This document shows positions 6,828 through 10,566 of a stretch of 64,000 nucleotides of DNA, piece by piece. The translations under genes were made by a program, and so were the position numbers. Numbering within the stretch: the stretch's first letter is position 1; every line of letters starts with the position of its first letter. Origin of the DNA: Saprospiraceae bacterium (GTDB lineage Bacteria > Bacteroidota > Bacteroidia > Chitinophagales > Saprospiraceae); contig JAHDES010000031.1 in NCBI GenBank assembly GCA_020628645.1, forward strand, positions 1 to 64,000, given 5' to 3'. Below the pieces are notes generated by a model. The model saw nothing but the letters and a program-made list of their open reading frames with translations, did no database searches and had not been told where the DNA came from.

Positions 6828-9221
6828 ATGTTTCATTTTTTGTTTAAAACACATCTTAAAAAAACGATACTTGTTCTAGTACTACTAGGTATTTGGTATT
6901 TTTTTGCTTTACCAAAACCGCTATTTACCGACCCTACTTGTATGGTACTAGAAGATCAATCTGGAGATTTATTAGGTGCTCGTATCGCCACAGATGGACA
7001 ATGGCGTTTTCCTCATCAAAAAGAAGTTCCAGAAAAATTTCAAGAAGCAATCATCGAATTTGAAGATCGACGTTTTCAGTACCACATCGGAATTGATCCT
7101 GTAGGAATTGGACGAGCAATCGTACAAAATATTCGTAATCAACGAATCGTAAGTGGGGGAAGTACCTTGAGTATGCAAGTGATCCGAATGGCACGAAAAG
7201 ACAAGGCTAGGTCAATTTTTCAAAAAATAATCGAAGCCATTTTAGCCACTCGCTTAGAATTGCGTTATTCCAAAGCAGAAATCATGCGTTTGTATGCTTC
7301 GCATGCACCATTTGGTGGAAATGTAGTTGGACTAGATGCTGCTTCTTGGCGATATTATGCCAAACAAGCCCAATATTTGAGTTGGGGAGAAGCCGCTACT
7401 CTAGCTGTACTCCCAAATAGTCCAGCCCTCATTCACCCTGGAAGAAATAGACAAGCTTTATTAGAAAAGCGTAATCGCTTATTGGATCGTTTACAAGCAA
7501 AAGGAGCGATTGATGTGATGACTTGCTCCCTTGCAAAAGAAGAACCTCTCCCTCAAAAACCACTCCCCCTCCCCCGCCTTGCTCCTCACTTATTGGATCG
7601 AGCCTATTTGGAACAGATTAAAGGAAAAAAAGATAAGCTTTCTAAAGTCAAAACGACCCTAGATCGTTCCTTACAAGAACAAGTCATTCGTTTAGTCAAT
7701 AAACAACATGACCTTTTAAAAGGAAATGAAATACATAATGCTGCTGCAATTGTAGTGGAGGTTAAAACGGGGAAGGTTCGAGCTTATGTCGGCAATGCCC
7801 CTAAAACAGGAGCAGCACACGGGCAAGATGTCGATATAATTATGGCACCTAGAAGTACGGGAAGTATCTTGAAGCCCTTTTTGAGTGCTTTTGCGATGCA
7901 AGATGGATTAGTATTACCACAAACTGTACTTTCAGATGTACCGACCTATATGAATGGCTATCGTCCAGAAAATTATCATGAATCCTATGATGGGGTGATT
8001 TCAATGGACAGAGCATTGAGTCGTTCGCTCAATATTCCATTTATTCGGTTATTATCTAAATATGGACTGGAAAAATTTCATCACAATTTACAAGAACTAA
8101 AATTAAGACACATCAATAAAGCCGCCAATCATTATGGATTGCCATTAATTGTAGGCGGAGCAGAATCTTGTCTTTGGGATATTACACAAGCTTATACGGG
8201 TATGAGTCGAACGCTTGCTAATTTTTATCCTCAAAATGGGCAGTACAATGAGAAAGATTTTGATTCGATTCAATATTTATATTCTGAAGAGGAAGAAGAA
8301 ATTGTATTGAATGATGAAGGTCCTGTCCTTTCTGCAAGTACTATTTGGCATACGTTTGAAGCCATGCAAGCGCTGGAACGCCCAAGTGGTGAAGGAAATT
8401 GGGAGTATTTTCAATCGAGTGAACAAATTGCATGGAAAACAGGAACGAGTTATGGCTTTCGGGATGCTTGGGCAATTGGTGCAACGCCCGATTATGTAGT
8501 AGGTATCTGGGTGGGCAATGCGGATGGTGAAGGAAGACCAGGTTTAGTAGGTGTACAAGCAGCAGCACCTTTATTATTTGATATTTTTGATGTGTTGCCT
8601 TCTAGTGGGGAATGGTTTTCTCCGCCTTATGATGAAATGGTTTTTGTACCCGTTTGTAAACAAAGTGGACATCGCGCACTTCCCATTTGTGAGCAAGATA
8701 GCACATGGATTCCCTTGAGTGGCTTACGATCAAAAGCATGTTCTTACCATCAATTGGTTCATTTGGATGAACAAGAAGAGTATCAAGTACATGCGAGTTG
8801 TACAGATGTAAATACTATTCAACACAAAGGATGGTTTATTTTGCCGCCCGTAGAAGAGCATTATTATAAAATCAAACATCCCAATTATCAAGATTTACCT
8901 GATTTTCGTAAAGATTGCCAAGGAGAAGAACTTGTTGAAAATAAAAATATGCAACTCATCTATCCTAAAAACAAAGCGAAGATTTATATCCCCAAAGATT
9001 TAGATGGTTCAAAAAGTGAGACGGTGTTCAAGGTAGCACATCGAAAAAAAGAAGAAGCAATTTATTGGCATGTAGATAATACTTTTATCGGTAGTACAGT
9101 CAATTTTCATGAAATGGCATTACAGCCTAGTGTTGGAAAGCACACGCTTACTTTAGTAGATGAACAAGGAGAACGATTAGTACAAGAATTTGAAATATTG
9201 GGAGAAGAATCAGAAGATTAA
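6828..9221 (+). CDS. pbpC: Penicillin-binding protein 1C (peptidoglycan glycosyltransferase/transpeptidase)
   Basis: PBP1C is an inner-membrane class A penicillin-binding protein that polymerises and crosslinks peptidoglycan. The 797-residue product has one N-terminal membrane anchor (about residues 12-28). The glycosyltransferase domain shows EDRRFQYHIGIDP (catalytic Glu about 79) and GGSTLSMQ (110-117). The transpeptidase domain shows SILK (346-349), SLN (400-402) and KTGT (537-540). A C-terminal BiPBP_C-type beta domain covers about 705-797, as is typical for PBP1C. Length and order match the family. The stop codon lies only five bases from the oligo(A) of the small-RNA terminator on the other strand. 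Confidence 0.94.
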   Translation: MFHFLFKTHLKKTILVLVLLGIWYFFALPKPLFTDPTCMVLEDQSGDLLGARIATDGQWRFPHQKEVPEKFQEAIIEFEDRRFQYHIGIDPVGIGRAIVQNIRNQRIVSGGSTLSMQVIRMARKDKARSIFQKIIEAILATRLELRYSKAEIMRLYASHAPFGGNVVGLDAASWRYYAKQAQYLSWGEAATLAVLPNSPALIHPGRNRQALLEKRNRLLDRLQAKGAIDVMTCSLAKEEPLPQKPLPLPRLAPHLLDRAYLEQIKGKKDKLSKVKTTLDRSLQEQVIRLVNKQHDLLKGNEIHNAAAIVVEVKTGKVRAYVGNAPKTGAAHGQDVDIIMAPRSTGSILKPFLSAFAMQDGLVLPQTVLSDVPTYMNGYRPENYHESYDGVISMDRALSRSLNIPFIRLLSKYGLEKFHHNLQELKLRHINKAANHYGLPLIVGGAESCLWDITQAYTGMSRTLANFYPQNGQYNEKDFDSIQYLYSEEEEEIVLNDEGPVLSASTIWHTFEAMQALERPSGEGNWEYFQSSEQIAWKTGTSYGFRDAWAIGATPDYVVGIWVGNADGEGRPGLVGVQAAAPLLFDIFDVLPSSGEWFSPPYDEMVFVPVCKQSGHRALPICEQDSTWIPLSGLRSKACSYHQLVHLDEQEEYQVHASCTDVNTIQHKGWFILPPVEEHYYKIKHPNYQDLPDFRKDCQGEELVENKNMQLIYPKNKAKIYIPKDLDGSKSETVFKVAHRKKEEAIYWHVDNTFIGSTVNFHEMALQPSVGKHTLTLVDEQGERLVQEFEILGEESED

Positions 9222-9225
9222 GGAT

Positions 9226-9293
9226 AAAAAAATCTCCTACATCAGGGAGGCTGGAAGTTGATGTAGGAGAACTAAACATACTATGAGAAAACT
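9226..9293 (-). ncRNA. Predicted small RNA, unit A of a three-unit array
   Basis: A transcript of about 68-71 nt is predicted on the minus strand. It begins with the conserved tail AGUUUUCUCAUAGUAUGUUU and ends in a 12-bp perfect stem (9259-9270 with 9233-9244) whose loop, read as RNA, is ACUUCCAGCCUCCC. A run of seven U follows, so the hairpin is also an intrinsic terminator. The start is placed by the -7 box TATATTTG at 9302-9309 (error of about 5 bases). Tail and layout are shared with units B and C, while the stem sequence is different. Plus-strand coding was considered and rejected. Targets unknown. Confidence 0.68.
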
Positions 9294-9301
9294 ACACGAT
9301 G

Positions 9302-9395
9302 CAAATATAATAGGAATTTAATTAATATGTAATCTTCATTTATGAAAAGGAAACATATTTAAATTAAATGGTATATATGCCTTAGAAAGTGGTAA
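9302..9395 (-). promoter_or_regulatory. Promoter of small RNA A: LytTR-like site pair and -7 box
   Basis: The -7 box TATATTTG is at 9302-9309. Upstream on the minus strand are two direct half-sites, TTACCACTTTC (9385-9395) and ATACCATTTAA (9364-9374), 21 bp apart. LytTR-domain regulators bind 9-bp direct repeats separated by 12-13 bp, which gives this period. The first base of the -7 box lies 61 bp from the proximal GGT core (9370), as in units B and C. No -33 TTG is seen, which fits activator dependence. Confidence 0.6.
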
Positions 9396-9530
9396 TTTCA
9401 GATAAATAGTGACAGCTAAAAAAAATCAAATACAAATTTATCAGATTTAAAATAGATTAGTTATCAATGGAAAGAATCCCATATTTAAGAAAAACCGATA
9501 TGATGTCACACAAATCAATGAAGTAGGGGC

Positions 9531-9597
9531 AAAAAAAATTCCAACACCTCAGAAGGGAAAGAAGATGTTGGAAAATTAAACATACTATGAGAAAACT
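9531..9597 (-). ncRNA. Predicted small RNA, unit B of a three-unit array
   Basis: A transcript of about 67 nt is predicted with the same 5' tail as unit A, then an 11-bp stem with loop containing UUUCCCUUC, then eight U. One stem pair is a G-U wobble only if the minus strand is transcribed. On the plus strand the same position is an A-C mismatch. This supports the minus strand as the functional one. The start is set by TATCTTG at 9603-9609. Confidence 0.68.
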
Positions 9598-9602
9598 AAG
9601 TG

Positions 9603-9695
9603 CAAGATAATACTTGTAATAAATGTATAAAATACATATTTATGTTATGGAGTTATATTACACGTAAGTGGTCATCTTTTCTTAGAAAACGGTAA
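9603..9695 (-). promoter_or_regulatory. Promoter of small RNA B: LytTR-like site pair and -7 box
   Basis: The -7-like box TATCTTG (9603-9609) lacks one T of the TAnnTTTG consensus. Half-sites TTACCGTTTTC (9685-9695) and TGACCACTTAC (9664-9674) are direct repeats 21 bp apart. The distance from the first base of the box to the proximal GGT core is 61 bp, identical to units A and C although the sequence between has diverged. Confidence 0.6.
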
Positions 9696-9738
9696 TATAA
9701 CGATGTAAAGAACTTTTGGGTTGGTTTTTTGGCTTCTC

Positions 9739-9806
9739 AAAAAATTCCTGCACTTTAGGAGGGATAAAAGTGCAGGAAAATTAAACAAACATACTATGAG
9801 AAAACT
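9739..9806 (-). ncRNA. Predicted small RNA, unit C of a three-unit array
   Basis: A transcript of about 68 nt is predicted with the conserved 5' tail (four extra bases follow GUAUGUUU), a 12-bp perfect stem (9767-9778 with 9745-9756), a loop UAUCCCUCCU and six U. It is the most upstream unit in the direction of transcription and is placed by a TATATTG box at 9812-9818. Confidence 0.68.
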
Positions 9807-9811
9807 TGTCA

Positions 9812-9904
9812 CAATATATAAGGCTAATTTTGAATATAAAATATAGAATGTAGTACAGGAGAAGCTTTAAAGATTAGCGGTCGTTTTCATCTAGTAAACG
9901 GTCG
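9812..9904 (-). promoter_or_regulatory. Promoter of small RNA C: LytTR-like site pair and -7 box
   Basis: The -7-like box TATATTG is at 9812-9818. Half-sites CGACCGTTTAC (9894-9904) and CGACCGCTAAT (9873-9883) are the best-matched pair of the three and lie 21 bp apart. ACCGTTTA fits eight of the nine positions of the published LytTR half-site consensus. The box-to-site distance is again 61 bp. I see nothing definite in 9905-10029. Confidence 0.62.
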
Positions 9905-10029: not shown

Positions 10030-10566
10030 CTATTCTACAAAAGGAATCTTCAACTTTTTGGCAGTCCATTTCGTTTTTTGTTCCATTTTGGCAAGGAAGG
10101 CAGCTATTCCCATTAAATAGGTATTCACTTTTACCGTATTTATCGTATCATCAAAAACAATATAGCTTTGTACGGATTGAAACTTTGCTTTTTTTATTTG
10201 ATGCCAATACATAATCCGTTTTTCTCCACGCCAATTGGTCACTTCCATTTTATCCTCATCAAAACAGACTTGATGATTATTGTACCACATAATACAAATC
10301 CATCCTAAGGCTCCAAATCCTAAAAAGACTAGCAACACCCACCATTCACCTGTAAAATCGCCATCAACTAGAAATAAGGTAGTAGGAATTGCCCCAAAAG
10401 CAATACTAAAACAACCGATCCAATAATATACTTTGTGTAAACGTAAACGAATTTTACCACTAGCATCTGGTTGGACTACTTTATTAGACGTACCCAAAAC
10501 ATAAGCCATAACAAGATGATAAAGCACGATGGGAAGTCCGATAGAAAGAATTGATTCCCAATCCAT
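10030..10566 (-). CDS. Small membrane protein of unknown function
   Basis: The 178-residue product has three hydrophobic segments, about residues 7-25, 47-66 and 75-93. After these comes a soluble tail with VCFDEDKMEVTNWRGEKRIMYWHQIKKAKF, which has the look of a PH-like (bacterial PH) beta domain. I do not recognise a named family. It starts 3 bases after the stop of the TonB-dependent receptor gene and should be co-transcribed with it, so a role at the envelope linked to that receptor is possible but not shown. Confidence 0.75.
   Translation of the reverse strand: MDWESILSIGLPIVLYHLVMAYVLGTSNKVVQPDASGKIRLRLHKVYYWIGCFSIAFGAIPTTLFLVDGDFTGEWWVLLVFLGFGALGWICIMWYNNHQVCFDEDKMEVTNWRGEKRIMYWHQIKKAKFQSVQSYIVFDDTINTVKVNTYLMGIAAFLAKMEQKTKWTAKKLKIPFVE

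Follow-up and report, generated by a model that had tools for sequence, protein, structure and literature searches.

The window analysed here, a stretch of 64,000 nt from the genome of a Saprospiraceae bacterium, carries three predicted small RNA units on its minus strand, recognized by sequence reading and folding, between a pbpC-like gene and an ORF of 178 aa. The reading that we favour, with a probability of roughly 60%, is that a two-component system responding to a peptide pheromone has this array as its RNA output, and that the sibling small RNAs (sRNAs) would block translation of their own pheromone.

The first-pass annotation described three minus-strand units built in one repeated order, and these were found in place: each unit consists of a LytTR-like direct-repeat pair with a period of 21, a ‒7 promoter box, the 20-nt box AGTTTTCTCATAGTATGTTT, a hairpin with a C-rich loop, and a U run. 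The box is exact in all three units (9806–9787, 9597–9578 and 9293–9274, minus strand). This conserved stretch had been called a tail, but it forms the head of the unit; since it begins a few bases after the ‒7 box, it marks the predicted 5′ end of the RNA. In unit 1 (sRNA at 9738–9806, minus strand, as for all the following elements), the direct-repeat pair at 9875–9902 shows one mismatch against the family pattern, the ‒7 box TATATTG lies at 9812–9818, and the box (9787–9806) is followed by stem arms at 9767–9778 and 9745–9756, the C-rich loop and the U run. In unit 2 (9530–9597), the pair at 9666–9693 matches the family pattern exactly, the ‒7 box TATCTTG occupies 9603–9609, and the box (9578–9597) precedes a 12-bp hairpin and U run; the ‒7 boxes of all three units were assigned by sequence reading together with their position in the family. 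Unit 3 (9226–9293) has an exact pair at 9366–9393, a ‒7 box, TATATTTG, at 9302–9309, which is located four bases further upstream than in units 1 and 2, the box at 9274–9293, stem arms at 9259–9270 and 9233–9244, and a U run. The hairpins of units 1, 2 and 3 folded with energies of ‒17.1, ‒13.9 and ‒17.4 kcal/mol (z-scores of ‒5.7, ‒3.1 and ‒3.5, respectively).

The pbpC-like gene (6828–9221, plus strand) is convergent with the array. The 178-aa protein gene (10030–10566, minus strand) lies upstream on the same strand as the array, at the place where many relatives have a histidine kinase gene, and its product gave no Pfam match at E 0.001. No Rfam family reached the gathering score across the 64-kb window, and a loose search by E-value returned only three sub-threshold matches in the array region (E 0.1 to 4.8). 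Elsewhere in the window, the segment 31367–54895 holds plus-strand ORFs of 7842 aa and then 1807 aa, preceded by minus-strand ORFs of 1641 and 1682 aa.

When the array region served as a DNA query, matches came from 25 of 60 relatives. By inspection, units of box plus hairpin were present in 21 of 37 Saprospiraceae genomes and in none of 23 genomes from other families of the order, and these 23 genomes also contained no exact complement of the box. A class-wide sample yielded the exact box in 2 of 217 genomes, both of which belong to Saprospiraceae. In a scan of named genomes for the exact box, at least 119 stretches were detected, and the titles among the matches listed were Saprospiraceae or other Bacteroidota, save one other bacterium and one contig labelled Thalassovita. 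The cultured species Phaeodactylibacter luteus and P. xiamenensis both proved to carry units. Units were accepted by a filter requiring a box with at most two mismatches, a tail fold below ‒7 kcal/mol, a T run and the presence of 160 nt of upstream sequence; 201 non-redundant copies from the relatives and the window passed. Both this count and that of 179 units may include a few false members, since a contig labelled Thalassovita sp. (L145, 3630–5138) passes the filter although its box is the complement of a protein gene start, where it coincides with the beginning of a gene for a secreted protein or falls slightly past it. This contig is probably a Bacteroidota contig that was wrongly binned.

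Across the 201 copies, the box was exact in 181. The motif CCRYT-N16-CCRYT occurred within 160 nt upstream of 110 of the 201 units, compared with a mean of 0.5 and a maximum of 4 in shuffled sequences; the LytTR-like pairs thus occur beyond chance. Relative to the box, the paired CCRYT words with a 21-bp period had maxima at ‒96, ‒75 and ‒54, and the preferred starting position of the ‒7 box, TANNTT, was ‒12 (97 of 201 units). The CCRYT word is similar, but not fully equal, to the LytTR consensus, and the pairs are candidate binding sites. The stem-loop that had been proposed is borne out by covariation in an alignment of 60 units (54 distinct) out of 167 passing a length filter: 95.4% of cells pair, compared with 80.1% after shuffling and 34–47% in slid controls, and none of 500 shuffles reached this value; both sides change in 9 of 11 pairs. 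Loops with CCC or CCTC were found in 157 of 200 units. The proposal that the units are separately promoted sibling sRNAs with LytTR-like sites fits these findings and is supported. The open-access literature searched contained no description of this sRNA family. We also considered phage-borne copies. Among 20 box-like stretches in viral contigs, only one (L336) combined an exact box of the A type, a strong hairpin and a T run, and most of the 20 look like ordinary gene starts or chance matches.

ORFs were clustered in a neighbourhood set of 108 of 147 loci (L166–L204 left out), 101 of them with a unit by the filter and 7 without. The recurring neighbours in the 101 loci included a TPR histidine kinase (42 loci), a LytTR response regulator (30) and pbpC (26). 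The array lies just 3′ of a soluble TPR histidine kinase gene in 40 of the 101 loci, mostly with the LytTR response regulator gene ahead of the kinase gene, and a common gene order is response regulator, histidine kinase, units and convergent pbpC. Some contigs are represented twice among these loci, having been deposited in two collections, and the distinct kinase sequences number 41; the kinase cluster, formed by single linkage, includes a few other kinases (e.g. L068 and L150). The co-occurrence of the units with a LytTR response regulator, raised in the first-pass annotation, was observed in part. A same-strand unit follows 40 of 44 kinase ORFs within 500 nt (71–450 nt, median 140 nt), with one to four units per kinase locus, and all 30 loci with the LytTR regulator also have the kinase; however, 50 of the 101 loci contain no member of the five recurring neighbours. 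The slices are no longer than approximately 9 kb, and in some of them the edge falls close to the unit; solo units nevertheless clearly exist. Taken at the level of sequence, the LytTR response regulator, a GG-leader peptide (described below), the TPR histidine kinase and one to four predicted sRNAs constitute a recurring Saprospiraceae locus.

In the window's genome, this locus is split, with the regulator, peptide and kinase on another contig (C22) and the predicted sRNAs in the window. The genome contains 28 LytTR matches, of which the orthologue at G000:C22:42028 is 65% identical to the regulator of a genome of the same genus (G002), while the next listed paralogues are 34–38% identical; the regulator is therefore located outside the window, as had been proposed. 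The kinase orthologue then follows the regulator on C22, so that the trio stands apart from the array. Pfam domains on C22 are Response_reg and LytTR for the regulator, and TPR repeats and His_kinase (PF06580) for the kinase. Hydropathy analysis detected no membrane-like segment in 35 of 36 kinases. An AlphaFold model of the kinase (mean pLDDT 85.9, pTM 0.61) shows a helical TPR solenoid at approximately residues 8–365, followed by the kinase part. In comparisons using Foldseek and VIA-align, LGN and other TPR proteins ranked at the top (LGN: Z 27.4, rmsd 5.2, 316 residues aligned), with the Rap/NprR peptide receptors close behind (chains at Z 20.9–24.8; RapI: Z 24.8, rmsd 6.6, 352 aligned). 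The modelled TPR fold is compatible with peptide binding, in a generic rather than a diagnostic sense. Directly 3′ of the C22 kinase gene is a gene for a membrane dipeptidase (Peptidase_M19; L319:5859–7106), possibly a lipoprotein. This gene lies at the position that the sRNAs take in many relatives, and its product might process the peptide.

All 21 gaps between regulator and kinase genes that were read contained a short ORF encoding a double-glycine-leader peptide. Typically, the peptide begins with MGK and runs through a leader and GG into a basic stretch that ends in GCGGIVPQ or similar; the peptide of the window's genome, on C22, is MGKSTKSTLDKLKDDVRVLEKLEMNHIIGGKTKSSSNWNTGCKGIVPQ. In an alignment of 22 peptides, the leader, GG and C-terminus align, and M1, G2, G29, G30 and P47 are invariant. 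One genome (G012, loci L064/L121) is an exception, the regulator and kinase genes being only about 20 nt apart. The regulator–kinase gap, holding the GG-leader peptide, encodes no AgrB-like membrane protease. A profile of the 22 peptides matched 18 of 60 relatives, including 17 of 21 with units but only 1 of 39 without (Fisher p 2.5e-10); after removal of the nine genomes supplying profile rows, the peptide was found in 8 of 12 unit-bearing and 1 of 39 unit-lacking genomes. The profile search at E 0.001 detected no peptide in four unit-bearing genomes (G012, G028, G029 and G030), and two loci (L373 and L374) gave weak matches lacking the C-terminus of the family. The window's genome has two matches to the C39 peptidase (PF03412), in open frames of 744 and 730 aa that are unlinked to the locus.

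Paired LytTR-like sites were absent from all 26 peptide upstream regions and from all seven readable regulator upstream regions, and we thus found no basis for autoregulation of the peptide or regulator via such sites. Because the paired sites are present at the units and at none of these upstream regions, the sRNAs look like the specific output of the system.

The box and the start region of the peptide mRNA, RCUAUGRGAAA, have complementary sequences. For a set of 26 peptides, the mean pairing energy between box and start was ‒15.65 kcal/mol, compared with ‒6.25 kcal/mol for shuffled boxes, and none of 300 shuffles reached the mean of the set. This set was drawn from 30 distinct regular-expression matches, of which three (L061 at 4753, L077 and L187) were dropped as non-family, and one (L130) was moved to a further set on account of its start. 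Pairing of ‒14 kcal/mol or lower was found at 22 of 26 peptide starts but at only 9 of 423 ORF starts, and pairing of ‒12 kcal/mol or lower at 25 of 26 and 19 of 423, respectively; the control starts were chosen mechanically from the same loci as the peptides, and since the peptide starts are homologous, these counts are not independent events. Nine further peptides, missed by the regular expression or the choice of start, included six that reached ‒12 kcal/mol and three that did not (L088, ‒11.4; L164, ‒8.1; L165, ‒5.5). Seven more from unit-bearing genomes (G013, G016, G017, G025, G033 and two in G035) all reached this value, so that 38 of 42 peptides from unit-bearing loci or genomes pair at ‒12 kcal/mol or lower. 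Pairing was poor despite the presence of units in L088, L164 and L165 and in L071 (‒7.9 kcal/mol).

The sequence CTATG is present at 25 of 26 peptide starts, and its frequency at the starts of ordinary ORFs is 10%. For Gly2, 25 of 26 peptides use GGA or GGG, two codons that account for 38% of Gly codons in long ORFs. In three peptides, one in G013 (the start of which is uncertain) and two in G035, the second residue is Arg (ATGAGA rather than ATGGGA), and pairing is retained with either codon, GGR or AGA. The only genome with the trio but without an array (G008, where neither a unit in the 9 kb examined nor a complement of the box at up to one mismatch was found) has a peptide start without the motif, pairing at ‒8.6 kcal/mol. 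The start was taken as the Met of the M-G-K-like motif; since several loci (L089, L093, L106, L111, L119, L128, L130, L148 and L367 among them) have an upstream in-frame Met, the pairing site may lie early inside the coding region there. Pairing of the C-rich loops with the peptide coding sequence was also considered and rejected, the mean over 41 unit–peptide pairs being ‒8.65 kcal/mol against ‒8.44 kcal/mol for shuffled codons.

These relationships suggest the following circuit. The peptide would undergo cleavage after GG and leave the cell through a C39-peptidase transporter; taken back up or acting inside, it would become a ligand of the kinase's cytosolic TPR domain. The kinase would phosphorylate the LytTR regulator, which would bind the pairs of 21-bp period to start the sRNAs, and the 5′ ends of the sRNAs would pair at RCUAUGRGAAA of the peptide mRNA, blocking its translation. 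Given this complementarity between box and peptide message, the sRNAs probably switch off signal production. Pairing across a start codon normally represses translation, and negative feedback is thus the simplest reading. Further mRNAs sharing this start context may also be targets. The several sRNA copies could act additively, as reported for the csRNAs on comC (PMC4507080).

An alternative is that the sRNAs, although real and LytTR-driven, mainly repress many mRNAs of exported proteins that start with AAACAUACUAUGAGAAAA, the peptide mRNA being one target among many or a bystander. Signal peptides often start with M-R-K, and near-perfect complements of the box were indeed found at the starts of genes for a 5′-nucleotidase-domain lipoprotein (C73), OmpA-family proteins (C9, and C63 by eye), curlin-repeat and PorP/SprF proteins, and others. 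By a hand tally of the matches, part of which were retrieved, with AGTCTG-type and hairpin-followed matches left out, non-unit matches exceeded reversed-pattern matches in the 21 unit-bearing relatives (20 vs 8) but not in the 39 unit-lacking relatives (20 vs 23). However, the start pattern shows no excess in the window's own genome (12 matches, three of which are the units, vs 20 reversed), and such starts occur on viral contigs too. The C73 site, the most evident additional target candidate in the window's genome, is missing from the readable orthologue starts in three unit-bearing genomes (G012, G016 and G018), among 22 orthologues taken, nine of which gave no start (G001, G011 and G013 among them), with G002 starting at the contig edge. 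Given the lack of excess in the window's genome and of conservation of the C73 site in these three genomes, we rejected exported-protein targets as the main role, and consider this alternative unlikely.

Even less probable, in our estimation, is that the box, rather than being an antisense seed, is bound by an RNA chaperone or a component of the ribosome, or serves as a DNA element just past the start site, so that the match to the peptide start would reflect a common initiation context. The box is conserved more strictly (181 of 201 copies exact) than pairing with the peptide requires; because most peptides pair with only part of its length, other factors must help to conserve it, and CTATG is found at one in ten ordinary starts. 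Against a common context stand the near-universal CTATG at peptide starts, pairing energies far beyond those of ORF starts, with a mean that none of 300 shuffled boxes reached, the survival of pairing through the Gly/Arg exchange, and its absence from the array-less genome. The peptide might instead be a bacteriocin or RiPP precursor rather than a signal, with the two-component pair and the sRNAs only regulating its production. GG leaders are a mark of bacteriocins and RiPPs as well, and the peptide of the window's genome shows a weak match to TIGR04149 (rSAM-modified RiPP), below the cut-off (21.2 bits vs 25; E 2e-4). No modification enzyme or transporter was found, however, among the genes in 8 kb around the trio of this genome, and the conserved C-terminus of the peptide beside a TPR kinase suggests recognition; we regard a precursor without signalling function as rather doubtful.

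The pheromone reading can be compared with known systems. In the agr system of staphylococci, a LytTR regulator activates a regulatory RNA, RNAIII, beside its own peptide two-component locus, and in many relatives here the regulator and kinase genes likewise adjoin the units. Output RNAs of this type have promoters with paired LytTR sites about 21 bp apart, and similar candidate pairs precede 110 of the 201 units. RNAIII is a single, divergent RNA of approximately 0.5 kb; AgrB cyclises the agr peptide, and the sensor is a membrane kinase. The present locus instead has several short RNAs with predicted lengths of 67–71 nt, together with a peptide bearing a GG leader and a TPR kinase that is soluble. 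The Qrr RNAs of vibrios are likewise redundant sibling sRNAs acting as a quorum-sensing output, but they are under sigma-54/LuxO control, act on targets in trans in an Hfq-dependent manner and do not answer to a peptide. Rap, NprR and other RRNPP receptors bind peptides through cytosolic TPR domains; in the present locus, the TPR domain forms a single protein with a histidine kinase, and the fold match is generic. The ComCDE and BlpCHR systems of streptococci combine an exported pheromone precursor with a LytTR-type regulator and a kinase, and resemble the present locus in the short precursor with a leader ending in GG beside the regulator and kinase, but they have a membrane kinase and no sRNA array in the operon. 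The ComC, ComAB and ComDE components are outlined in PMC4507080, passages of which also describe the closest analogue, the csRNAs of Streptococcus pneumoniae: several similar small RNAs, dependent on one response regulator, CiaR, pair around the translation start of the pheromone precursor comC and lower pheromone output additively. According to the same passages, the csRNAs are driven by CiaR and not by ComE, the pheromone's own regulator (PMC4507080), whereas the sRNAs described here recur in the pheromone locus itself; the csRNAs belong to a different phylum, and no sequence relation to the present units was seen.

Thus pheromone-silencing sibling sRNAs, LytTR-driven RNA, GG pheromones and TPR receptors are each known singly; a single locus that brings them together with a soluble TPR kinase, in Bacteroidota, was not found in the open-access literature searched. 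Peptide quorum sensing is known mainly from Firmicutes, and Saprospiraceae are abundant in activated sludge and on marine particles. If true, the conservation in Saprospiraceae of a pheromone together with its receptor, its regulator and an RNA output would represent a testable signalling system for the phylum, and the circuit would predict exact RNA–RNA contacts. In its fullest form, the proposal is a peptide quorum-sensing circuit of Bacteroidota: a GG-leader pheromone would be read by a cytosolic TPR kinase, a LytTR-driven array of sibling sRNAs would shut off pheromone translation at the start codon, RNA pairing rather than the amino acid would fix codon 2 of the pheromone, and the variant AGTCTG-type boxes within the genus, including two that lie in prophage-like regions, might belong to RNAs of mobile elements that target this start as well. 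We regard this extended version as an even call.

A second box type, TTTTCTCATAGTCTGTTT (TTTTCTTATGGTCTGTTT in C87), followed by a hairpin, is present in the window's genome, at L021:6098–6115 (C71), L022:6467–6484 (C80) and on the minus strand of L023 (C87), and in two genus-mates, at L245 (G001) and L246 (G002). It retains the part able to pair with the peptide start, except in C87. Both C87 and C71 look prophage-like, with a RecT-like match in C87, a DNA methyltransferase in C71 and similar ORFs in both, while the second boxes of C80 and L245 come after a lysozyme-like gene (an endolysin match for C80). Just after the box in the prophage-like region of C71, ARAGORN detected a tRNA with the anticodon TTA, which reads the stop codon TAA (L021:6140–6212). 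Finally, two head-to-tail complements of the box, with 0 and 3 mismatches and 28 nt apart, were found on the minus strand of L235 (1962–2007; G017:C82); the pair is located outside any long ORF read from the complements, and resembles a sponge for the sRNAs.
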